From contig NZ_CP047602.1 in the NCBI RefSeq assembly GCF_009905255.1, positions 62,001-126,000 of the forward strand: a stretch of 64,000 bases of DNA, written 5' to 3'. The notes beneath the pieces are model-generated. The model searched no databases. It was not told the origin of the DNA and saw nothing but the letters and a program-made list of their open reading frames with translations. Positions 47,415 to 59,200 of this stretch are shown in pieces; position 1 is the stretch's first letter, and every line of letters begins with the position of its first letter. The DNA is from Thermoanaerobacterium aotearoense (GTDB taxonomy: Bacteria; Bacillota; Thermoanaerobacteria; Thermoanaerobacterales; Thermoanaerobacteraceae). The translations under genes and the position numbers were made by a program.

Positions 47415-47420
47415 TGTTTT

Positions 47421-48035
47421 TTACATTTCTAAACATACAACAATGTTTTTTTGCTTTTTGGCTATGTACAGTGCCTTATCAGCTATTATAATAATGTCTA
47501 TAGCACTTACTCTATAATGTGTGACTGCCACACCTACAGAAACTGTAACAGTAACATTTGTTTTAAAATAATGTTTTTCTACTGCGTTTTTAATTCTCAT
47601 TGCTGCAACTTTTGCTTCATTGAAATTTGTATTAGGCATAATTATAGCAAACTCTTCTCCTCCATAACGATAAGCAGTATCACTTCTTCTTATATTTACT
47701 TTTAGAATATCTGCTAATTCTGCAAGTACAGTGTCACCCGTTACATGTCCATATGTATCATTAATTAATTTAAAATTATCGACATCACAAATCAAAAGAG
47801 CCAAATTAGTCCCGCCTTTTAAGCGTTTTAATTCATCCGATAAAGTATAGTCGAAATATTTTCTGTTGTATAAGCTGGTTAACTTGTCTATTCTTGCATT
47901 GCTTTTAAGTACATATGTATAAATACATATTATGATACAGATAAAGAATTGTATTAGTATAAAAACAATACTATAGTAGGTAATCAGAGTAATTAAAAAT
48001 AATAAAAGAATGATACAAAAATCTATAATTTTCAA
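47421..48035 (-). CDS. Membrane diguanylate cyclase (GGDEF)
   Basis: 204 residues. Two N-terminal TM helices (FCIILLLFLITLITYY and FILIQFFICIIICIYTY), then a GGDEF domain from DKLTSLYNRKYF, with ICDVDNFKLINDTYGH, and active-site YRYGGEEFAII. No inhibitory I-site RxxD is obvious four residues before GGEEF. Predicted to make cyclic-di-GMP. No sensor domain beyond the helices. Convergent with rlmH. Confidence 0.92.
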   Translation of the reverse strand: MKIIDFCIILLLFLITLITYYSIVFILIQFFICIIICIYTYVLKSNARIDKLTSLYNRKYFDYTLSDELKRLKGGTNLALLICDVDNFKLINDTYGHVTGDTVLAELADILKVNIRRSDTAYRYGGEEFAIIMPNTNFNEAKVAAMRIKNAVEKHYFKTNVTVTVSVGVAVTHYRVSAIDIIIIADKALYIAKKQKNIVVCLEM

Positions 48036-48195
48036 TTATATCACCTTTCCCTTACACACTTTTATACAAAATTATAAGGCAATTCTAGAAAAAAGTAAAC
48101 TATTAAGCAATAAAAATATGTGCGTTTTAGTTTATTTATAAAACCAGTAATACAGAATAATATATATATATGTATTAAATTTTTGTGGAAGTTGA

Positions 48196-48552
48196 GTGAA
48201 TGAAAAGGTGAATGGTGATTTTGATTTAAAAGAATTAGGAATGCGTATAAGAGCGGAAAGAGAAAGGATGGGCTTGACAAGGGAGCAGTTTGCAGAAGCA
48301 GTAGGTGTTTCTGCTATGTATATTGGGCATATAGAGCGTGCTCAAAGAGTAATGAGTTTAAAGACATTTGTGCGTATTGCAAAAAGCCTCCATGTAAGTA
48401 CAGATTATCTCTTATTTGGGATAAGAGAAGTAGAAAATAAAAATGATGGAGAAAAAGAGGATGCACTAATAGAATTGCTTAATAAATGCACAGATAGGGA
48501 ACGTAAAATTGCAGAAGAAATATTAAAACTTTTGGTTACATATATAAAATAG
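48196..48552 (+). CDS. XRE-family transcriptional regulator
   Basis: 118 residues. GTG at 48196, weak GGAAG upstream. The HTH_3 domain (LGMRIRAERERMGLTREQFA, VSAMYIGHIERAQRVMSLKT) is followed by an acidic linker and a C-terminal helix (CTDRERKIAEEILKLLVTYI). Resembles SinR/SlrR-like or phage-type repressors. It may control its own gene or the neighbouring GGDEF gene. Target unknown. Confidence 0.9.
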   Translation: MNEKVNGDFDLKELGMRIRAERERMGLTREQFAEAVGVSAMYIGHIERAQRVMSLKTFVRIAKSLHVSTDYLLFGIREVENKNDGEKEDALIELLNKCTDRERKIAEEILKLLVTYIK

Positions 48553-48554
48553 TT

Positions 48555-48589
48555 AAGATGCAGTTACTACATTGGCATCTTATTTTTTG
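48555..48589 (+). terminator. Rho-independent terminator
   Basis: AAGATGC and GCATCTT arms, 13-base loop, then TATTTTTT. Confidence 0.8.
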
Positions 48590-48721
48590 CTATCTTTTAA
48601 AGGATTTGAACATATAATAATGTTATAAAACCCTCAAATATAAATGATTTTATAAATATTTTTGTGCAATTAACATAATAGCATAATGTGTATTACAATA
48701 CACATATGGAGGTGTATCATT

Positions 48722-48850
48722 ATGCGGACAAATATCGTCATAGATGATGAACTTATTAAAGAGGCCTTAAAGATAACAGGGATAAAGACAAAGAAAGAAA
48801 TTGTTAATATTGTACTTTTGTCCAAATGCTGCCTTTACCTCTGCCATGAC
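48722..48850 (+). pseudogene. VapB-type antitoxin 5' fragment
   Basis: ATG at 48722 follows GGAGGTG. MRTNIVIDDELIKEALKITG and IKTKKEIVN is the start of the DUF2191/VapB antitoxin family (normally about 65 residues). After 27-30 codons the frame runs into the 3' end of the convergent nuclease gene (LLSKCCLYLCHD). The usual C-terminus and the vapC toxin are absent. Confidence 0.7.
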
Positions 48851-49874
48851 TAATTATCAAACTTTCTTTTTTAAGGTCATTTAGCACCTTTCTGATTGTA
48901 GAGTCTGGGGTATTAGCAAATCTATTTCTTAAATCGCTTATTGTAAAATCTCCGTTGATATTTTCAAGAATTTCTTTTCTAATCTCAAAGTAAATTCCTC
49001 CTGTAAAATCATTCTTCGTTTGATAATCTGATATTCCTTCTGCGACTCTATCAGGTATATATTCGCTTTCGTGCGATATAATGGCTTGAAAAAACCTTAA
49101 TGTCCATTCATTAGCCAATTTTCTATTGCCGGCGAATATGATTTGAAATTTTGGATGAAATGCAAAAATCTCAGCTATCACCTTTGCCATATACGATGGC
49201 GTATAAATGCTTAATTTGTCAGGGTTTAAGTAATCTGAATAGTTGGCTTCAATGACAAGTGCCGAATGCTTATATTTTTCCAATTCACCCAGCTTCTGAT
49301 GTAAAATTGGCAAATTGGCGATGTCGGCTCTAAAGTTTTCAAAACTTTTTCTTTCTACGACAGCCGCTATTTCATTATTGTAAAACAATGCGTAATCACC
49401 TGCTGGCAACTGTACTTTTTCAACAATGCAATTGGTAAATTTCCAGGGGTATTTTTCGTTTGCATCAATCAATATGTGAAGGTTGTTGTTTCCTTTTGCA
49501 GTCAATTTAACACGAGGCTTGTGCTCCTTCAAGCCCTGCTGTGTCCTCCAAAATATCTGTTCGTATTCTCCTTCCTTATTTTTGTATTTCTTTTTAAGAA
49601 AGAGAAATTCACACCTTTTATTTACACCGCGGTCTAAGACCACAGATAACCGCTTGCCATATCGATCAATTGATATAATTGGTACTTTCTCAATGACTTC
49701 ATAATCATTGGATTGTTCATTGGTATCTTTAAGGCAAAATATCTGACTTCCTGCACCAGGCCATTTATTCTGCACAAACAATGATAAAATCACTGTATCG
49801 CCTTTTTTGATGCTAAGCCTGTATGGAAATTTATCATTTTTTGTTGATTCAAGTACCCATAAAAGATCGCTCAT
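48804..49874 (-). CDS. ERCC4-type nuclease with N-terminal domain and C-terminal winged helix
   Basis: 356 residues. The N-terminal 120 residues form a predicted beta-rich domain of unknown family. An ERCC4 nuclease core lies at about 132-270 with ILIDANEKYPW, GDY at 159-161 and ERK at 174-176 (GDY..VERKSFENF, the metal-dependent XPF motif). A C-terminal wHTH follows (FTISDLRNRFANTPDSTIRK). No helix-hairpin-helix domain, unlike XPF/Mus81. Likely cuts branched DNA; repair or defence cannot be decided. GAAAGGGTCATT precedes the ATG. Confidence 0.85.
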   Translation of the reverse strand: MSDLLWVLESTKNDKFPYRLSIKKGDTVILSLFVQNKWPGAGSQIFCLKDTNEQSNDYEVIEKVPIISIDRYGKRLSVVLDRGVNKRCEFLFLKKKYKNKEGEYEQIFWRTQQGLKEHKPRVKLTAKGNNNLHILIDANEKYPWKFTNCIVEKVQLPAGDYALFYNNEIAAVVERKSFENFRADIANLPILHQKLGELEKYKHSALVIEANYSDYLNPDKLSIYTPSYMAKVIAEIFAFHPKFQIIFAGNRKLANEWTLRFFQAIISHESEYIPDRVAEGISDYQTKNDFTGGIYFEIRKEILENINGDFTISDLRNRFANTPDSTIRKVLNDLKKESLIISHGRGKGSIWTKVQY

Positions 49875-49964
49875 AATGACCCTTTCCTAAATATGATTTT
49901 ATTACACATTTATTTTATTATAATGAGAAGGTTATTGCAATTTTTTTCATACAATAAATACCGT

Positions 49965-50034
49965 TTTAGTACTTTCGTACTAAAAAAATTAGTACTTTTG
50001 GTCAGTTGACATATTTGTGAATTGAATATATTAT
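49965..50034 (+). promoter_or_regulatory. 47-bp palindromic box plus promoter, copy 1
   Basis: 49965-50011 is identical to 51728-51774. It contains TTAGTAC-TTTC-GTACTAA, a third TTAGTAC, and ends with the -35 TTGACA (50006-50011). After 17 bp comes TATTAT (50029-50034). Drives the VanZ-like gene. Confidence 0.75.
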
Positions 50035-50143
50035 GAGGTCAAGAGAATTACCGGTAAGTTCTCAGAGGAAAAATATGATTAATGAGCTTTAAGATACATA
50101 GAAATACTAAATTATTCAAGTTGTATTCGGGAGATGAATTATT

Positions 50144-50710
50144 TTGGGAATGAATTTTCCGATAGGATTAAAAGCTATTTTGTTTATTTTCTTCATTCCT
50201 CTAATTATAAAACAATTTAAGTCGACAAAGAACATTGTTATAGCCATATTTATTGCAGGGGTTATTATATATGCAATTGAACTAATAAGTATAGTGTTTT
50301 TTCCGATCACATTTTATCCACCTATGCCTAATTATACTCCAGATGTAAATATTGTTCCTATGAAAGATATAATAATTCTTATGAGATCACAACCAATTAG
50401 TATAGCTATAAAAAATGTGGTTGGGAATATTATACTTTTCATACCGCTTGGCTTTTTTGTACCGATAATATATAGAAATATGAACAAATTTAATTATACG
50501 TTATTGTTGGGTTCGTGTGTTTCAGTATTTATAGAAATTGCTCAATTTACTATTGATTATTTGACAAAGTATCCCAATCATACATCTGATGTCAATGATG
50601 TCATATTGAATATTATTGGATTAATATTGGGGTTTATGATTCAAAGAGGAATTAGAAAAGTATCTTTTATGGCGGACTATATAAATAATGGGGCAAATAA
50701 AATTGAATAA
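50144..50710 (+). CDS. VanZ-like membrane protein
   Basis: 188 residues, TTG start ten bases after CGGGAG (ATG 50150 is possible). Four or five TM helices, with the VanZ-type VNIVPMKDI, NVVGNIILFIPLGFFVPI, EIAQFTIDYL and TSDVNDVILNIIGLILGF. VanZ of Enterococcus gives teicoplanin resistance by an unknown mechanism; most homologues have unknown roles. Here it has its own promoter with the shared 47-bp box, so it is probably co-regulated with the secreted proteins downstream. Confidence 0.9.
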   Translation: MGMNFPIGLKAILFIFFIPLIIKQFKSTKNIVIAIFIAGVIIYAIELISIVFFPITFYPPMPNYTPDVNIVPMKDIIILMRSQPISIAIKNVVGNIILFIPLGFFVPIIYRNMNKFNYTLLLGSCVSVFIEIAQFTIDYLTKYPNHTSDVNDVILNIIGLILGFMIQRGIRKVSFMADYINNGANKIE

Positions 50711-50742
50711 TCAGATATGGTTTGCAATTAATGATCATTTCC

Positions 50743-50775
50743 AAAGGGCAGATATTAATCTGTCCCTTGTTTATT
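50743..50775 (+). terminator. Rho-independent terminator
   Basis: AAAGGGCAGA and TCTGTCCCTT arms with one bulge, then GTTTATTATT. The following 180 bp to the next gene are AT-rich with no other feature. Confidence 0.65.
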
Positions 50776-50960
50776 ATTGATAAAAATTAAAAAATTTATT
50801 AAAAACATTAAGAATTTATTAAGAAATGTTAAGTTTTGGTTACATTAAAAGGAATTTAAAAATTTTTATAGAAATATGATTATAGAAAAATACAAAAATA
50901 AATTTGCCACATTTTAGAAGTCGTTAATATTTTAACTTTATTGTAATAAGGGAGATCGAG

Positions 50961-51722
50961 ATGAAATATGAAGTCATAAAATATGATACTCATAAACATT
51001 TGTTTGATGAAGCATGGAGAAGGTGTATTAAAAGAGGACTTAATCAAGATGCAGAGCCATTTATGCTTGTATCAGATCTTTACGTTTCCGATGAGAGGAA
51101 GTTGCTAATTAAAGCCTTTAGAAAAAGCGTTTATGAAATATCTAAGATTGATGGACAATTTAAAAGTCATATATGTCTATTGACAGATGAAAATGGCATC
51201 ATAATAGATTTGATTATGAATAACAAAAGTAGTCTTCCTCGTTTAAATATAGGTGTTCAGTTGAAAGAAGAATTTGCAGGAATAAATGCAGTATCGATCG
51301 CTTTAAATGAAAGAGAAGCTGCATTTGTCAAAAAGAATGAACATTATCTTAAGTGCCTCAGGAAGATAGACTGCATAGCTGTACCTGTCTTTGACAATAA
51401 AGGGCAATTGACAGGTGCAATTGATATTTCATGTATGAATGGACTTACTGATGAATGTGCGATTACGGCGTTTTTGATGGCAAAATATACAGAATACAAT
51501 TTTATATTGCTTAAAAGAGAAATGATAAAAGAAAAATTGGAAGAAGTAGAGCTAAAGATTTTGAAACTGACAGCGGAAGGAAAGACGGACGAAGAGATTG
51601 CAAAAATGATTAATAGATCAATAAGCAATGTAAAATACCATAAAAACAAGATTTTTGAAATATTAAACGTGAAAAATGTAAAGGACTGTATATATAAAGC
51701 GGCAAAGATGGATCTGATATAA
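50961..51722 (+). CDS. GAF-like sensor with LuxR-type DNA-binding domain
   Basis: 253 residues, ATG after GGGAGATCGAG. The N-terminus (DEAWRRCIKRGLNQDAEPFM) resembles the start of AcoR-type activators, followed by a GAF-like domain (EFAGINAVSIALNEREAAFV, CIAVPVFDNKGQLTGAIDIS). A LuxR/GerE helix-turn-helix ends the protein (LKLTAEGKTDEEIAKMINRS, SNVKYHKNKIFEILNV). No phosphoacceptor domain. It lies between the two 47-bp boxes and is the obvious candidate to bind them, sensing a small molecule through GAF. That link is inference. Confidence 0.88.
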   Translation: MKYEVIKYDTHKHLFDEAWRRCIKRGLNQDAEPFMLVSDLYVSDERKLLIKAFRKSVYEISKIDGQFKSHICLLTDENGIIIDLIMNNKSSLPRLNIGVQLKEEFAGINAVSIALNEREAAFVKKNEHYLKCLRKIDCIAVPVFDNKGQLTGAIDISCMNGLTDECAITAFLMAKYTEYNFILLKREMIKEKLEEVELKILKLTAEGKTDEEIAKMINRSISNVKYHKNKIFEILNVKNVKDCIYKAAKMDLI

Positions 51723-51727
51723 TATAC

Positions 51728-51797
51728 TTTAGTACTTTCGTACTAAAAAAATTAGTACTTTTGGTCAGTTGACACAATTTTGGAAGAAACATATAAT
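51728..51797 (+). promoter_or_regulatory. 47-bp palindromic box plus promoter, copy 2
   Basis: 51728-51774 repeats 49965-50011 exactly, again ending in TTGACA (51769-51774). After 17 bp comes a perfect TATAAT (51792-51797). Begins 5 bp after the LuxR gene stop and drives the secreted-protein genes. Confidence 0.8.
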
Positions 51798-51930
51798 GAA
51801 ATCAACCATCGACTGGCAATTTTTTCAGAATAACTTAAAGCAGCAAAGTGTCAGAACGAATAAAAAATGGAGGTGATATTTAAAACTTGAATTGTTACTT
51901 TAAATTAAAAATGATGAGAGGATGGTTTAA

Positions 51931-52753
51931 ATGAAAAAATTGGCAGTGTTATTATTAACTCTATGTTTATTTATAACAGCTAGTATTACATCTTTTGCTG
52001 CTATCCAATCTTCTTACAAAAATCCATCAAAAGTAAAACTACAAAACGAATGTATCAGTTGAAGATAACCAAACACAAATTGTTGAAGAATTATCGAAAT
52101 ATGTTTTGCAAGAAAAGGATGGTACACTAATTTTGAATATACCGGATGATTTTGAAAAAAAGATAGATAAAGATATAGAGAAGCAAATAAAATTGAGTAT
52201 GAATAGAGTAAATAATATAATAGAAAAACAAAAAATAAAAATAGATGTTCTTAAATTTAATTTTATTGATGAAAATAATTTATTGATTATTGGCTATTAT
52301 AATGACAAGAATATACTAGCTATGAATTGCGTGAAAGTATGCCTATTGCCTGAACCTACCAGCAACGTTAAAGACGATGATATCAAATTGGATTCACTTA
52401 ATAATAGTGAAATTGTTCCGAGTGATATTACTCCGGTTGTAGCGTATGTAGACGCTTATGTCACTTTAACAAGTTCTGGTATTTTATATTATAATGGTGA
52501 TGTTACAGCAGATTACCCCATTAATGCTCAATTAACTATGAGTCTGTTATGGGCGCTTGGTAGTAGTTGGCAACAAGTAGCCACTCAAAAACCGTATTAT
52601 GGAACGGGAACTGCGATATATACACCTCTATATTTATATTTAGATAAAACAATAGGCTCGTATATGAGTAGAAATTATTATGTTCTTTCAGCACCAGGAC
52701 ATGCTGAAGTTATAGGAACTATGTACTCAAGCCAAATACATATTTGGCCATGA
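51931..52753 (+). pseudogene. Secreted protein with one frameshift
   Basis: ATG at 51931 follows GAGAGGATGG. The signal peptide MKKLAVLLLTLCLFITASIT ends near SFAAIQ. The frame stops at 52062; a one-base shift near 52040 joins NVSVEDNQTQIVEELSKYVL and a 215-codon frame to 52753. The C-terminal half (AYVDAYVTLTSSGILYYNGD, APGHAEVIGTMYSSQIHIWP) looks like an extracellular beta domain. Corrected length is about 273. No family recognised. Phase variation, decay or sequencing error are all possible. Confidence 0.7.
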
Positions 52754-52805
52754 AAAATGTAGGCGGTGTGTAGTTGTGATTAAGGGTTGTGGAAGGAAAA
52801 AAGTA

Positions 52806-53108
52806 ATGCTTCAAAAAATAGAAAATGGTATTGAAGCAGAAAATATAGTTATAACTGAAGATGAGCAGCTAATAGAACCATATGAAAAGGATAGATTTGA
52901 AAACTTGTTGAAATTTATCAAAGAAAATTTTGTTGATATAACAAAAGAGTTTACTGAGGAAGAAAAAGAATTATTAAAAATGCATTGGGGTATAGATATG
53001 TCTTTAATGACATTTAGCGAGATTGCTGAGATAAAACATATGGATGAAAGCATTTTAAGGTCTAAATTAAAAGATTTGGAAAAACGCTTTTTCCATAGTA
53101 CAAGATGA
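52806..53108 (+). CDS. Small sigma-region-4-like protein
   Basis: 100 residues from ATG 52806, eight bases after GGAAGGA. The N-terminal part is acidic. The C-terminal part (FTEEEKELLKMHWGIDMSLM, TFSEIAEIKHMDESILRSKL) resembles sigma-70 region 4, the -35-binding helix-turn-helix, without region 2. It might be a regulatory accessory to a sigma factor or to the box-linked promoters. Lies directly after the secreted protein gene, so is probably co-transcribed. Confidence 0.6.
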   Translation: MLQKIENGIEAENIVITEDEQLIEPYEKDRFENLLKFIKENFVDITKEFTEEEKELLKMHWGIDMSLMTFSEIAEIKHMDESILRSKLKDLEKRFFHSTR

Positions 53109-53168
53109 GTATGTTGATCTAAGAGTAAGCGTTGCTCGAAACGGCGATATTGGGAAGAACTGAGGTGA

Positions 53169-53368
53169 ATGGGTTTAGATAAATTCTTTAAATAGTTGTT
53201 ATCTATCATTTTGGTTGTACTGGTTTTAAATCTTTTGTTTTTGTCGTTTGTTTTTATCATCAATTGGAAATCTCCTTAACAAGGCAATTTAGTGGACATA
53301 CAAATGATAGGAATCAGGTAAATTACTCAAATGTATCAGGCTATGAATATTATGTTCTGTGGAATTAG
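53169..53368 (+). pseudogene. Decayed small membrane or secreted ORF
   Basis: GAGGTG precedes ATG 53169: MGLDKFFK, TAG (53193-53195), then a hydrophobic LLSIILVVLVLNLLFLSFVF in the same frame. After a frameshift, ISLTRQFSGHTNDRNQVNYS runs to 53368. Looks like an anchored or exported protein that lost its frame. A free 27-residue hydrophobic peptide from TTG 53196 is an alternative. Confidence 0.4.
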
Positions 53369-53383
53369 GATTAATGAGTGTTT

Positions 53384-53433
53384 AATTCATATAAAGAAGA
53401 AGCTTATTTTGCTTCTTCTTTATATGAATTTTT
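53384..53433 (+). terminator. Long-stem Rho-independent terminator
   Basis: A perfect 20-bp stem: AATTCATATAAAGAAGAAGC (53384-53403) and its complement (53411-53430), 7-base loop TTATTTT, then TTT. It closes the preceding operon just before the lipoprotein gene. Confidence 0.85.
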
Positions 53434-53455
53434 AAGGAAGGAGTTTTTGTTCTTT

Positions 53456-54598
53456 ATGAAAAAATTTTTTTTGATGGTCTTTACACTTATATTTATTGCT
53501 ACAGGTTGTTATACTGTAGACAATACTAAAGTCACAGAAAAAGAAAGCCCTAAAAGCGACATTGGAGAGATAAAAATACCTTTTTTGGTATATACAAATG
53601 AACCAGGTAATAAACATTCGGCGATGTTAGCTTATTGGGATTTGAATAATTCTAAAGTAAATTTAACTGAAAAGATGGTCTATGTCTCAGAAGATCCCAA
53701 TTTTGTCACACCTTTATTTTGGGATGGAGATGGCAGGATAGTATTGAGGAAGACGTATTATCCAACAGATGAATATAAAGACAAAGTAGATTTTGTCAAA
53801 GGCAATGATGTGGGTATGGTATACGGCAAGGACATTGAAGCTAAAGGGAATTTGGATGACAATCCTGAACCAATTAAAAAAGTAAAAAACTATACATTGT
53901 ACTTGCACAATGGCAGCGATGTAATGGAAAAGAATGTACCATTTCTGTATAAAACGAAGGATGACAAAGGCAATGATATTACAGTAGGTGAATATAATCA
54001 ACCATGCTTTATAGATTATGACAGCAAAACAGGTGATATAACATTTATCTTTGATTATCAATTTGAGACACATTCCAATATATACGTTGCTAAGTGCAAT
54101 GTAGGCAACATTGACAAGATAAGCTGGGATGAAATAAGGCTTCCCGGTGGTGGCGTTGTTTATACACCTTGTCCCAATAATACAATGCTTGTAGGTTCTA
54201 AATACTACATCCAATGTTTCAAAACTTTAGGTGAAGTCGATCTTAAGACAAGAAAAGCAACTTTGCTTGATGATGTTGCGAAAGAATGCAGAAGCATCGT
54301 GAAAGAGGGAAGTTTTAAGCCAGACTATTCTAAGGATATAACGCCTGTTGGAAAGTATAAAGATGTGTTGATTTTAAACCTTCCTATAAGTACAGATACA
54401 AATGTAGAGCCTTTAATATGCGCCTTTAAAGATAATAAGCTATTAGGTGCAATACATCTAAAAAGCGATGATAGATGGGATGTAATTGGCCCTGATAAAA
54501 AAGTTGCATCTTCAATGGATGTGAAAGGTAAAAATCTGTACAAAGAATTTGGTGCAGATTTGATGTACTTCCCAGGCCGGGAAGACATAAGTTATTAG
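53456..54598 (+). CDS. Lipoprotein, unknown
   Basis: 380 residues from ATG 53456, with AAGGAAGGAG upstream. MKKFFLMVFTLIFIATGCYT is a type II signal with lipobox cysteine at 18. The mature part (SAMLAYWDLNNSKVNLTEKM, GKDIEAKGNLDDNPEPIKKV, FIDYDSKTGDITFIFDYQFE) alternates strands and acidic turns and could be a beta-propeller. No family recognised. Extracytoplasmic, membrane-tethered. Only 23 bases separate the terminator hairpin from it, so its transcription start is unclear. Confidence 0.75.
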   Translation: MKKFFLMVFTLIFIATGCYTVDNTKVTEKESPKSDIGEIKIPFLVYTNEPGNKHSAMLAYWDLNNSKVNLTEKMVYVSEDPNFVTPLFWDGDGRIVLRKTYYPTDEYKDKVDFVKGNDVGMVYGKDIEAKGNLDDNPEPIKKVKNYTLYLHNGSDVMEKNVPFLYKTKDDKGNDITVGEYNQPCFIDYDSKTGDITFIFDYQFETHSNIYVAKCNVGNIDKISWDEIRLPGGGVVYTPCPNNTMLVGSKYYIQCFKTLGEVDLKTRKATLLDDVAKECRSIVKEGSFKPDYSKDITPVGKYKDVLILNLPISTDTNVEPLICAFKDNKLLGAIHLKSDDRWDVIGPDKKVASSMDVKGKNLYKEFGADLMYFPGREDISY

Positions 54599-54669
54599 CA
54601 TATAATAAAACAAAAATTGACTGATGATGTTTGCGAAATATTTTAATACCGAAAAGGGGTGAAATTAAA

Positions 54670-55347
54670 GTGAACAGAAAGTCAATACGAATATCAATAT
54701 GTTTAATCTTGATACTAATCTTAAGTTTAAGCCTAAGTGGAACTTCATTTGCTTTACGAGGAGGAAGTGTTTATACAGGTAGTAAACAAATTGCCGCTCC
54801 AAATGTAGAAAATCTTGAGCCATCGTCTGAGACTACAAAAATGACATCTCCAAGGCAAGTCCCTTCAAATGTAGATATAATCAGTAATCAAATAACTGTT
54901 TCAAATGAAGAAATTTCTAAACCGGCTTCTGAAACCACCAAGATGACATCACAAAAGGTAACTTCTTTAAATGCAGCTAATCTTATGTCCCTTAGTCGGC
55001 CGACTAAAGGAACAAATCTTCCTTATGATGGTGCTTTTAGTGGAGTCAACACGGAGATTTTTTCAAACTACTATTTTTTCACAAATGGTTCCACACAGCT
55101 ATATGTAGACTGGAATGTAAGAGCTGATTATCCTGCTAATGTTTTATGGCACATTAATGTTTATCAAGCCGGTACAAATAAATTTGTAATGAGCTCGGAT
55201 CAATTTTCAACAAATTCTAATACTGGCTGGTGGACAACAAGATTTTACAATTTGGACCCCGCATACAATTACTACATATCTTTTGTAAATGATGGACCAC
55301 AGATTAGCTTTCCCATATCAGGCGATTTTACTGTAAGACTAAAATAA
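54670..55347 (+). CDS. Secreted protein with internal SETTKMTS repeats
   Basis: About 225 residues. GTG at 54670 follows AAAGGGGTG. Signal peptide NRKSIRISICLILILILSLS ends near GTSFALRG. A low-complexity linker has two copies of SSETTKMTS/ASETTKMTS about 40 residues apart. The C-terminal domain (about 130-225) is aromatic-rich (YFFTNGSTQLYVDWNVRADY, NTGWWTTRFYNLDPAYNYYI) like a carbohydrate-binding or jelly-roll fold. Family not recognised. Preceded by a 70-bp gap without a clear promoter. Confidence 0.7.
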   Translation: MNRKSIRISICLILILILSLSLSGTSFALRGGSVYTGSKQIAAPNVENLEPSSETTKMTSPRQVPSNVDIISNQITVSNEEISKPASETTKMTSQKVTSLNAANLMSLSRPTKGTNLPYDGAFSGVNTEIFSNYYFFTNGSTQLYVDWNVRADYPANVLWHINVYQAGTNKFVMSSDQFSTNSNTGWWTTRFYNLDPAYNYYISFVNDGPQISFPISGDFTVRLK

Positions 55348-55433
55348 AAACAATTCGAAGATAAACATATAAAGGCCTTTCACTTTATGCAGAGGGTCTT
55401 TATATTGGCAATATATATTTGGTGGTGGTATGA

Positions 55434-56105
55434 TTGAGAAAAATGATATACGTTTTGGTATTTATTGCTGTGGCTTTGTTTATCATCATAGCCTTTGATT
55501 TATCGAAAGTCAACACACAGAAAGATATCGAAAATACAAACGTTGATAATATATCATCGAAGACAATCAAATTGAAATATGGACATATAGATTTGTCACG
55601 AGATAATGTCAATATATCTGAGTCAAAGTTGGATTCCGATGGATTTTCAAGGATTGAAGTTTATGACAAAGATAGCGGAAAATTCATTGAAGCTTATGGC
55701 GTAAAAGAAGAGCCTTTAAATGTATCTGGTTTTGCCAATAAAGCATCAAAAGTTACAATTTACAAAGAACGAAAAGATTATCCCGCCGTAGTGAGGCTTT
55801 ACGCGGTTTTGACGGTTTATTCTGACAGCTTAAGACAGATAAAAAGCATTGATAAGACGTACTGGGAGAAAGCCGATGATGGCGATTGGCAGTTGAAAAA
55901 TCCACATGCGGCTGCGATTTCTACAACAGGCCTCTTTCCTTCGAAGGAAATTGAGGCAAGCGGTACTGCAACGATAGAAATGAAAGCTAATATATTTACG
56001 GTAGGTATCTTAAATAAGTCTGGGTTTAATGTTTTTCAATCAGATGAAAATGGATATTATTTAAGAAAGACAGTAGAATTAGGCTTTAGATACACCTTGG
56101 ATTAG
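55434..56105 (+). CDS. Membrane-anchored protein, unknown
   Basis: 223 residues. TTG start after GGTGGTGG. An N-terminal TM helix (MIYVLVFIAVALFIIIAF), then an extracytoplasmic domain with DSDGFSRIEVYDKDSGKFIE, VVRLYAVLTVYSDSLRQIKS and GTATIEMKANIFTVGILNKS. Last of the run of exported proteins. No family recognised. Confidence 0.7.
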   Translation: MRKMIYVLVFIAVALFIIIAFDLSKVNTQKDIENTNVDNISSKTIKLKYGHIDLSRDNVNISESKLDSDGFSRIEVYDKDSGKFIEAYGVKEEPLNVSGFANKASKVTIYKERKDYPAVVRLYAVLTVYSDSLRQIKSIDKTYWEKADDGDWQLKNPHAAAISTTGLFPSKEIEASGTATIEMKANIFTVGILNKSGFNVFQSDENGYYLRKTVELGFRYTLD

Positions 56106-56223: not shown

Positions 56224-59200
56224 GTGAATAGAAATTTGCACTATTTAGGGGTAGACGTAGGCTCTACTACGGCCAAAATAGTCATCTTAAATGAGAATGA
56301 TGAGATAATCTATAGTAGATATGAGCGGCACTTATCTAACATAAAAGATACTATTGTAAACCTCATAGATGATGCGTATTCTAAAATTGGCAATCTCAGT
56401 GTATCTGTTGCGGTTACCGGTTCTGGCGGTATGGCGGTAGCTGAGTGGCTTAATATGCCGTTTGTTCAGGAAGTGATCGCAGGCACCAAGACGGTGGAAA
56501 GGTTTTTTCCTGAGGCAGATGTGGTCATAGAGTTAGGCGGAGAAGATGCCAAGATTACATACTTTGACGGCACTATTGAGCAGAGGATGAATAGCAGTTG
56601 TGCAGGCGGCACAGGTGCATTTATAGATCAGATGGCATCACTTTTAAAGACAGATGCTTTAGGTCTTAATGAGCTTTCCAAAAACCATAAAGTCATATAT
56701 CCAATAGCGGCAAGATGTGGCGTTTTTGCAAAAACAGACATTCAGCCTCTTTTAAATGAAGGCACTGCGAAGGAAGACATAGCGGCTTCCATATTTCAAG
56801 CAGTTGTAAATCAGACTATAAGTGGTCTGGCATGTGGACGGCCTATAAAAGGGAATGTGGCATTTTTAGGTGGGCCTTTATATTTTCTTCCGGAATTAAG
56901 AAAGAGATTTATTGAAACATTGAACTTGAAAGATGAAGAAGTCATCGTTCCTGAAAATTCCCAGTTAGCTGTTGCCATAGGTGCGGCACTTTCCGCAAAA
57001 AATGATGAAATAACTACATTAAAAGACCTAAGAGATAAAGTACATACGCTTCCGTACAAAGTGAAAAATGATGTGGAGAGATTGAGGCCGCTTTTTGCAG
57101 ACGAAGATGAGTACAAGGAGTTTAAGGAAAGGCACAAAGGCATTGATGTCTTGAAGAAAGATATAAAAGATGCCAGAGGCGGTCTTTTCTTAGGAATAGA
57201 TGCAGGTTCTACTACAACAAAGCTTGTACTTATAGATGAAGGCGGTGCGATAGTCCATTCTTATTACGGCAGTAACGAAGGAAATCCGCTAAACTCTGTC
57301 ATAAGGGTCCTTTTGGATATATACGAGAAGATGCCGGATGGTGCATATATAGCCAATTCTACTGTAACAGGATATGGCGAAAGCCTCATTAAAGCAGCTT
57401 TGATGGTGGATATAGGCGAGATCGAAACGATTGCTCATTACAAGGCATCGGAGCACTTCTTGCCTGGTGTTGACTTCATACTTGATATAGGCGGACAGGA
57501 CATGAAGTGCATAAGGATAAGGGATGGCGTAATCGACAGCATAATGTTAAATGAAGCATGTTCTTCAGGGTGCGGTTCGTTTTTGGAGACATTCGCGTCT
57601 TCTCTCAACATGTCAATTGATGAGTTTACTGAAGCTGCATTAAAAGCTCAAAACCCAGTCGATTTAGGTTCTCGCTGCACTGTTTTCATGAATTCAAGGG
57701 TGAAGCAGGCGCAAAAAGAAGGGGCATCGTTAGGAGATATATCTGCAGGTCTTTCATACTCTGTCATAAAAAATGCTTTGTACAAAGTCATAAAGATAAG
57801 AGATCCAAAAGAGTTAGGAGAAAAGATAATCGTTCAAGGCGGTACATTCCTCAATGATGCTATACTAAGAAGCTTCGAACTTATTACAGGCAGAAATGCC
57901 GTAAGGCCTCAGATAGCGGGGCTAATGGGCGCATACGGTGCAGCTCTTATCGCAAAGGAAAGGTACAGTGGAGGAGTCAGCACAATATTTACGAAAGACA
58001 AGCTTGAAAGCTTTAGCGTGGAAGTGTCAAACGGCAGGTGCAATAAATGCACAAATAGATGCCTTCTTACCATAAATAAATTCAATGACGGAAGGGAGTT
58101 TATCTCAGGAAACCGGTGCGAAAGAGGTGCCGGAAAAGAGATTGCAAAAAACGATATACCAAACCTTTACGACTACAAGTACAAAAAGATATTTGGCTAC
58201 AAGCCATTAAGCGAAGGTGAGGCGTATAGAGGTACCATTGGCATTCCGAGAGTTTTAAACATGTACGAAAACTATCCGCTGTGGTTTACATTTTTTACAA
58301 AGCTTGGCTTTAGGGTCATATTGTCTGACAGGTCATCAAAGAAGCTTTATGAGTCTGGCATGGACACAATACCGTCGGATTCTGCATGTTATCCGGCAAA
58401 AATCGTCCATGGGCACATAGTGAACTTGATAAATAAGGGCATCAAGACGATATTTTATCCATGCATACCTGTCGAGCAAAACATCTATGAAGATGCGGAC
58501 AATCATTACAATTGCCCCATTGTGTCGTCTTATGCAGAAGTCATCAGAAACAACATGGACGTGCTGAAAGAAAAAGACATTCTGTTGTTAAGTCCTTTTT
58601 TGGCGCTGGATGACAAAGAGAAGCTTGCCAAAAGGCTTTATGAAGAATTGAAAGCTTTTGGCGTATCAAAAGGTGAAGTGGAAAATGCATTAAAAGAAGC
58701 TTTTGATGAAGATAAAAGGATAAAAGACGACATCGCAAGAAAAGGAGAAGAAGTCTTAAAATATCTGCGCGATACAGGAAAAAGAGGAATAGTCCTTGCA
58801 GGCAGGCCCTATCATTTAGATCCAGAAATAAACCATGGCATACCGGAGATAATAACATCACTGGGCGTGGCAGTATTGACAGAGGACTCTGTAGCGCATT
58901 TAGGCAAACTTGATAGAAAGCTTAGAGTTGTTGACCAGTGGATGTACCATACAAGGCTTTATGCGGCGGCAAGCTTTGTGGCTGACAGCGAAAACTTAGA
59001 GCTTGTGCAGCTTACTTCATTTGGCTGCGGCATTGACGCTGTCACATCCGATCAAGTGCAGGAGATCTTAAGCTCCCATGAAAAAATATTTACGCTTATA
59101 AAGATAGATGAAGGTACCAATGTAGGTTCTATAAGAATACGCATAAGGTCATTGATAGCCGCTATCAATGAAAGAAAAGATGAGAAAAGAGTCAAAACAT

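Follow-up and report, generated by a model that had tools for sequence, protein, structure and literature searches.

Most known nucleases of the XPF type come from archaea and eukaryotes, and not every protein with an ERCC4 domain cuts its substrate, as is illustrated by the DNA-binding relative FAAP24, which does not cut. The motif of these nucleases is given as GDXnERKX3D in PMC7048804, which also names ERCC1 as a non-cutting relative. The manganese ligands of LigD, which contains a 3'-phosphoesterase (PE), are His42, His48 and Asp50 according to PMC8656161. Type II toxin-antitoxin systems of the VapBC type combine a ribbon-helix-helix antitoxin, VapB, with a PIN-domain toxin, VapC.

Here, we describe a locus in a stretch of 64,000 nucleotides, referred to as the window, which comprises positions 62001-126000 of the single 2.67-Mb contig of the genome denoted G000. 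The locus consists of a short vapB stub and a convergent gene for an ERCC4-domain nuclease. Compared to VapBC systems, the stub corresponds to the first half of VapB, while the 3' half of vapB and vapC are missing. The nuclease has the ERCC4 fold and the GD...ERK core in common with archaeal XPF/Hef, eukaryotic XPF and MUS81. However, it differs from these proteins in that it has no helicase part and no (HhH)2, in that the last Asp of the motif is an Asn, and in that it carries a winged helix as a tail and a PE-like barrel in front. This predicted beta-barrel is common to residues 3-116 of the nuclease and the LigD PE domains of P. aeruginosa and archaea, but the barrel in the window contains no histidine (residues 1-109), gives no match to LigD_N, and is joined to a nuclease, whereas LigD PE is joined to a ligase and polymerase. 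Also comparable are plasmid-encoded proteins of Mycobacterium, Rhodococcus, Streptomyces and Pseudonocardia annotated as 'ERCC4 domain-containing protein' or 'Lsr2'. These show the same succession of N-terminal domain and ERCC4 domain, and the five that were scanned differ from the nuclease in the window by having an Lsr2 DNA-binding domain instead of a winged helix. The account that we consider probable as a whole is that vapBC suffered a deletion beside a resident nuclease gene, and that this gene encodes a stand-alone XPF-type endonuclease.

The vapB stub and its junction with the nuclease gene

The stub (48722-48853, + strand) matches positions 1-29 of the 47 positions of the VapB_antitoxin profile PF09957 with an E-value of 1.3e-13 and 51 bits, the cut-off being 23.4 bits. 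This match runs out at about 48808, and the open reading frame of the convergent nuclease gene ends at 48804. An earlier reading of this DNA that was made from the sequence alone (the sequence-only reading) had placed the end of the VapB match at the 3' end of the nuclease gene and had called the two genes head-on. The first statement is accurate, and so is the second in the sense that the genes are convergent, tail to tail. Based on PF09957 and alignment with vapB of five congeners, the vapB 5' remnant, which covers about codons 1-29 and the start of the ribbon-helix-helix, extends over 48722-48810 (+ strand). Within the 43 codons of the stub frame, 29 codons for VapB residues are followed by 14 codons that run antisense through the 3' end of the nuclease gene to a stop (48811-48853, + strand). 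The deletion junction itself maps to 48808-48810 in the alignment with congeners, where the bases TAT can be assigned to either side. The nuclease gene (48804-49874, - strand) encodes 356 amino acids and has its last codon, for Tyr, and its stop codon from vapB DNA. This stop codon reads TTA on the + strand (48804-48806). Since the nuclease stop lies inside vapB-derived DNA and the stub stop lies inside nuclease DNA, the frames of the stub and the nuclease share 50 bp. No full-length ribbon-helix-helix antitoxin was found in the window, the match being confined to the above-mentioned 29 profile positions, and no frame for a PIN-domain toxin separates the stub from the nuclease gene.

The vapB promoter contains an inverted repeat, TGTGTATT-AC-AATACACA (48687-48704, + strand), the arms of which are perfect in the window genome and decayed in the congeners G003 and G006. 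This repeat is likely to be the operator for VapB or VapBC. Further to the left of the stub lies a gene for an XRE-type HTH regulator (48196-48552, + strand), which is also present at full length in G001 and G006, as fragments in G003, G005, G007 and G008, and absent from the stretches that were read of G002 and G004.

Deletion of vapC beside a resident nuclease gene

The VapB profile was searched in 21 relatives, among them the congeners G001-G008 and other genomes of the family. A complete VapB (PF09957 positions 1-47) adjoins the nuclease gene in G001, G004, G005, G007 and G008, and a truncated VapB stands beside it in G000, G003 and G006. In each of the five intact congeners, vapB is followed by a vapC frame of 132 amino acids, which was scanned by Pfam in G001 and there encodes a PIN protein (PF01850). 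The order in G001 is vapB, vapC and then the nuclease gene on the opposite strand, with 7 bp separating the stops of vapC and the nuclease gene. When measured from the start of vapB to a point that these genomes share within the nuclease 3' end, the interval spans 92 bp in G000 and 95 bp in G003 and G006, as compared to 609 bp in G001, 632 bp in G004, G005 and G007, and 1198 bp in G008, which has an extra gene at this place. G002 has neither anchor and was left out of this comparison. It follows that about 514-540 bp are missing from G000, G003 and G006. For G000, the loss amounts to about 517-540 bp compared to G001 and G004/G005/G007, and comprises the whole of vapC together with the 3' half of vapB. 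The DNA of the window aligns with that of G001, G004, G005 and G007 up to query base 251, and the alignment resumes at 249-253 about 0.5 kb further on. As a consequence of the deletion, the C-termini of the nucleases differ (...WTKVQ in G001, ...WTKVQY in G000 and ...WTKVKLY in G003).

In five congeners, vapB and vapC are thus retained next to this nuclease gene in the same orientation, and the deletion therefore took place beside a resident nuclease gene. What this event did was to delete vapC; it did not bring in the nuclease. The sequence-only reading had proposed the opposite, namely that the nuclease block came in by an event that removed the rest of vapBC. The comparison that it had suggested, with relatives in which vapBC is intact, speaks against this proposal. 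An insertion of a nuclease-bearing block into vapBC with removal of its 3' part would fit with the vapB similarity that stops at the nuclease end, with the absence of the nuclease from G009-G019, the 11 other genomes of the family that were searched, and with the occurrence in G010 and G012 of vapB and a vapC-like frame without a nuclease gene. However, vapB, vapC and the nuclease gene are found side by side and in the same order in the five intact congeners, and no part of vapBC had to go for the nuclease gene to be present. We regard such an insertion as highly improbable, and note that a different and older insertion event is possible.

Under the preferred account of a deletion beside a resident gene, the ancestral block of the genus would have consisted of vapB, vapC and the convergent nuclease gene, to the right of murA-htrA-rlmH. 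A short deletion ending at the nuclease stop codon would then have removed vapC completely and vapB over its 3' half, thereby leaving the 43-codon stub and supplying the nuclease gene with a new stop codon. We see in this deletion the ordinary decay of a common toxin-antitoxin pair.

The number of such deletions is at least one and most likely two, one in G000 and one in G003/G006. The junctions of G000 and G003/G006 are three bases different in length, their sequences differ, and the promoter repeat is in a different state in the two, as described above. Furthermore, the DNA around the stub of G000 is nearest to that of the intact G007 (95% identity, versus 82% with G003). A single deletion in the common ancestor of G000, G003 and G006, followed by a 3-bp loss and an exchange of upstream DNA, is favoured by the near-coincidence of the junctions, which are a few bases apart and keep the same stub reading frame, and by the similarity of G000 and G003 over the first 6 kb of the contig as well as in murA and htrA. 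In view of the afore-mentioned differences, we consider this course of events conceivable, but less likely than two deletions. G002 represents a separate, larger loss at the same boundary. Its nuclease match (L072; G002:C14:58565-59554) stops at residue 329 of 356, which means that the end of the winged helix was lost, and neither vapB nor the XRE gene is left between rlmH and the nuclease gene.

Two congeners show additional genes or gene copies. The extra gene of G008, located between vapC and the nuclease gene (L077:4182-4547), encodes 121 amino acids and looks lipoprotein-like by eye. It has no Pfam match at an E-value of 0.01, and no such gene was seen at this place in the other congeners read. 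In G004, a second and decayed copy of the block is located about 13 kb away (L067; G004:C1:1327200-1327664 and 1328427-1328567). In this copy, a complete VapB match is followed by a PemK/MazF-type toxin gene where vapC would be, and the nuclease has lost approximately residues 58-253, including most of the ERCC4 domain, with the frame still open. A further short fragment is located at G004:C1:1106018-1106146.

Distribution of the nuclease gene and exchange between species

The nuclease was detected in all nine genomes of the genus and in none of the 52 others among the 61 genomes searched, including 11 other genomes of the family. In each of the nine, the gene is found 0.2-10 kb to the right of rlmH. 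Vertical conservation at this locus in relatives, which the sequence-only reading had named as evidence against its own proposal, is therefore seen for the position of the gene but not for its descent, because the flanks, the contig start and the nuclease gene are discordant.

Indeed, the tree of the nuclease gene disagrees with the flanking genes. Between G000 and G005, the identity at 4-fold sites is 47.6% for murA and 43.3% for htrA, versus 87.3% for the nuclease gene, 88.5% for a vanZ-like gene and 90.5% for the gene at 53378. Between G000 and G003, the order is reversed, with 91.1% for murA and 87.2% for htrA versus 74.2% for the nuclease gene. The values for rlmH are intermediate in both comparisons (63.2% with G005 and 78.3% with G003). 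The first 6 kb of the G000 contig are 98% identical with G003, 82-84% with G005 and 78% with G004, and the nuclease DNA of G000 is 94% identical to that of G005 and 90% to that of G003. A strictly vertical inheritance of the nuclease gene is ruled out by the discordance between murA/htrA and the nuclease gene at 4-fold sites, and a lower substitution rate of the nuclease gene cannot account for the comparison of G000 with G003. The discordant identities indicate that a stretch was exchanged between species, and the block was most simply swapped by homologous exchange.

The gene content of the stretch 47415-56105 of the window, from rlmH to the large gene at 56224, varies from congener to congener, and several of its genes are, at synonymous sites, far closer to the distant clade than murA and htrA are. 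This stretch is an exchange-prone island. Three relatives of genus g3 have, in addition to the normal rlmH, a diverged rlmH-like stretch that lies a few bases away from it on the opposite strand (G010:C17:16660-17507, G011:C54:23299-23990 and G012:C1:290310-291157).

Domain architecture and predicted folds of the nuclease

Three domains can be distinguished in the nuclease. The ERCC4/XPF nuclease domain comprises residues 132-262 (49089-49481, - strand) as judged by Pfam, model and alignment. PF02732 (ERCC4) matches residues 147-260 with an E-value of 4.4e-9 and 36.8 bits, which is above the curated cut-off of 24 bits. It is preceded by an N-terminal domain of residues 1-117 (49524-49874, - strand), modelled as a LigD-phosphoesterase-like beta-barrel, and followed by a predicted C-terminal winged helix of residues 292-355 (48810-49001, - strand). 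The model of the full protein has a modest quality (pLDDT 65.9, pTM 0.39), and that of the N-terminal domain alone reached a pLDDT of 69.6 and a pTM of 0.66. Comparison with solved structures using VIA-align assigned residues 130-251 of the full model to XPF/Hef/MUS81 (best 2bgw_B, Z 10.9, rmsd 2.4, 108 aligned; 1j24, Z 10.3). Residues 288-356 resembled winged helices of the Z-alpha type (1sfu, Z 9.1, rmsd 3.2, 66 aligned; 3f21, Z 9.0, rmsd 1.9). No HhH was detected in the nuclease by profile search at E-values up to 1, and residues 292-356 are modelled as a winged helix. Pfam and the predicted model thus bear out what had been read from the sequence, namely three domains in an unusual combination, with HhH replaced by a winged helix. 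In searches by sequence, solved structures returned only the tail of a Fic protein (E 0.12), NCBIfam returned Hef matches far below the cut-off, and PHROGs matched a family of ERCC4-type nucleases weakly.

It had also been noted previously that the N-terminal domain cannot be assigned, and this was confirmed, as the N-terminal 130 residues match no Pfam family at E-values up to 10. The same domain is without a Pfam assignment in seven of seven family members. Its predicted fold points to LigD PE. Residues 3-114 of the full model matched the LigD phosphoesterase 3p43 (Z 9.4, rmsd 3.1, 104 aligned). With the model of the domain alone, Foldseek placed four LigD PE chains first (probability 1.00, E-values of only 0.004-0.013; the next hit had a probability of 0.14), and VIA-align placed six PE entries first (Z 10.3, 9.1, 8.5, 8.5, 8.4 and 6.4; the next had 4.3). 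LigD_N (PF13298) gave no match at E-values up to 10 in the N-terminal domains of seven family members, nor in G000, and an hhalign comparison of the N-terminal domain profile with six real PE domains was not significant (probability 0.1-0.3%). The window protein has no histidines in residues 1-109 and the other 14 rows of the alignment have 0-3 in this stretch, and only one alignment column of the domain contains His in at least 3 of the 15 rows. Counterparts of the manganese ligands of LigD are not visible in the aligned N-terminal domain of the window protein. Because there is no histidine in residues 1-109 and no match to a PE profile, the N-terminal domain looks non-catalytic. The simplest reading of the models is that it represents a PE-like fold that may have lost catalysis; alternatively, the likeness could be due to convergence towards a common barrel.

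Catalytic core, selection and proposed activity

Residues D137, E140, G159-D160 and E174-R175-K176 of the ERCC4 domain are identical in all 14 aligned rows. The last Asp of the motif is replaced by Asn180 in four of these rows (the window protein, L017, L018 and L022), and the remaining ten have Asp in nine cases and Gly in one. Due to this replacement the activity could be altered. In the N-terminal domain, W38-P39, R82, R87 and F108-W109 are invariant across 15 rows. The dN/dS values for 36 pairs within the genus, calculated as ratios of means, were 0.07 for the ERCC4 domain and 0.08 for the N-terminal domain, as compared to 0.23 for the winged helix and 0.35 for the linker; the gene as a whole had 0.11. 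Strong purifying selection acts on both the barrel and the nuclease domain.

The Asn at the last position of the motif could be taken to mean that the protein is a non-cutting DNA-binding relative, like FAAP24 and ERCC1, the more so as N180 is present in all ten rows of an alignment of Thermoanaerobacterium, Tepidanaerobacter-type and Leptospiraceae sequences. However, the remaining core residues are identical in all 14 rows aligned, and purifying selection on the ERCC4 domain is strong. We therefore consider this reading quite unlikely.

Instead, we infer that the protein is a metal-dependent, structure-specific XPF-type DNA endonuclease that would most likely act alone, as a homodimer. Its ERCC4 domain would cut, the N-terminal barrel without metal ligands would read a DNA end or a junction of single- and double-stranded DNA without cleaving it, and the C-terminal winged helix in place of (HhH)2 would hold duplex DNA. 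As the biological role, repair or recombination would be our first choice, and action on foreign DNA our second. A literature search combining ERCC4 with bacteria, Lsr2, defence and LigD, which was thin on subscription titles, showed nothing on this nuclease family among the titles listed. Less ordinary than the deletion is this bacterial branch of XPF-type nucleases, with an extra domain that resembles an end-processing enzyme of bacterial NHEJ minus the catalytic residues. If the proposal is true, this branch would offer a small single-chain system for junction finding by an XPF nuclease that has neither a helicase nor a partner subunit nor (HhH)2.

Homologues outside the genus and their neighbourhoods

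A profile of the family matched 39 of 398 genomes of the phylum. Judged by the range matched, in 18 of these the N-terminal domain and/or the ERCC4 domain is present (partially in G305 and in pieces in G358), and in 21 only the winged-helix part. Among 149 genomes of the phylum to which the Leptospiraceae record belongs, five matched, two of them over nearly the full length. The ERCC4 family itself matched 4 of 14 control genomes, all four being archaeal. On plasmids, 23 records matched, all of which are actinobacterial by genus name, and the 20 homologues listed from these 23 records are 26-33% identical to the nuclease. All five actinobacterial plasmid homologues that were scanned combine ERCC4 with the Lsr2 DNA-binding domain PF23359. 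The N-terminal domain and the ERCC4 domain are thus constant and the tail is either a winged helix or Lsr2, which suggests that the two front domains are kept as a unit and that the DNA-binding tail is exchanged.

No match was found in 50,697 phage records. A scan of IMG/VR matched at least four distant loci, mainly over the nuclease domain, and a scan with the actinobacterial alignment yielded no loci. A phage origin was rejected on the basis of these searches.

Gene neighbours were read at 18 loci outside the genus, including L017-L022 and plasmid loci. Genes of the toxin-antitoxin type are present within about two genes of the nuclease at 5 of the 18 loci and none were seen, by eye or in an incomplete gene table, at the other 13, this being a raw count without a control for the background frequency of such genes beside any gene. 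The positive loci are those of G156, with a MazE-like antitoxin gene and a PIN gene according to Pfam, near-identical frames of which were seen by eye in G407; G305, with a MazE-like gene; G245, with genes for HEPN and a nucleotidyltransferase; and a locus of Rhodococcus pyridinivorans with an annotated HipA-type pair. The neighbours of the Tepidanaerobacter-type nuclease resemble housekeeping genes by eye. PADLOC gave only weak matches (E-values of 0.005-0.02), mostly to the winged-helix parts, and no defence assignment.

The sequence-only reading had suggested a mobile or defence context for the architecture. The search for homologues and neighbours supports the mobile part to some extent, through the actinobacterial plasmid homologues and the discordant histories described above, and gave no assignment for the defence part, where PADLOC returned the above weak matches. 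In a more explicit form, the nuclease could be an enzyme for defence or competition between plasmids, in which the tail would direct the XPF-type cutting domain towards DNA that is foreign or rich in AT. The gene would move between replicons, often near toxin-antitoxin genes. The plasmid records, the Lsr2 domain, the exchange between species and the toxin-antitoxin type genes beside the nuclease, in the genus and at the five other loci, are in keeping with this idea. Nevertheless, we consider it doubtful, since PADLOC made no assignment, no phage record matched, the majority of the other loci showed no toxin-antitoxin type gene, the Tepidanaerobacter-type neighbours look like housekeeping genes, and the adjacency was counted without a control. 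To a similarly small extent we entertain a broader view, in which the protein would belong to a widespread family of stand-alone bacterial nucleases. In such a family, a dead LigD-PE barrel might sense 3' ends or junctions, the XPF domain might cut, and exchangeable tails might choose the DNA. These enzymes could then be directed against foreign DNA or competing replicons, and could have spread between species and plasmids.

On a plasmid of Rhodococcus sp. DK176 (L113:1-4611), the gene for an ERCC4-Lsr2 homologue is located by genes that are annotated as encoding a TnsA-like protein, a Mu-transposase-type protein, an ATP-binding protein and TniQ, a set that looks like that of a Tn7-like transposon.
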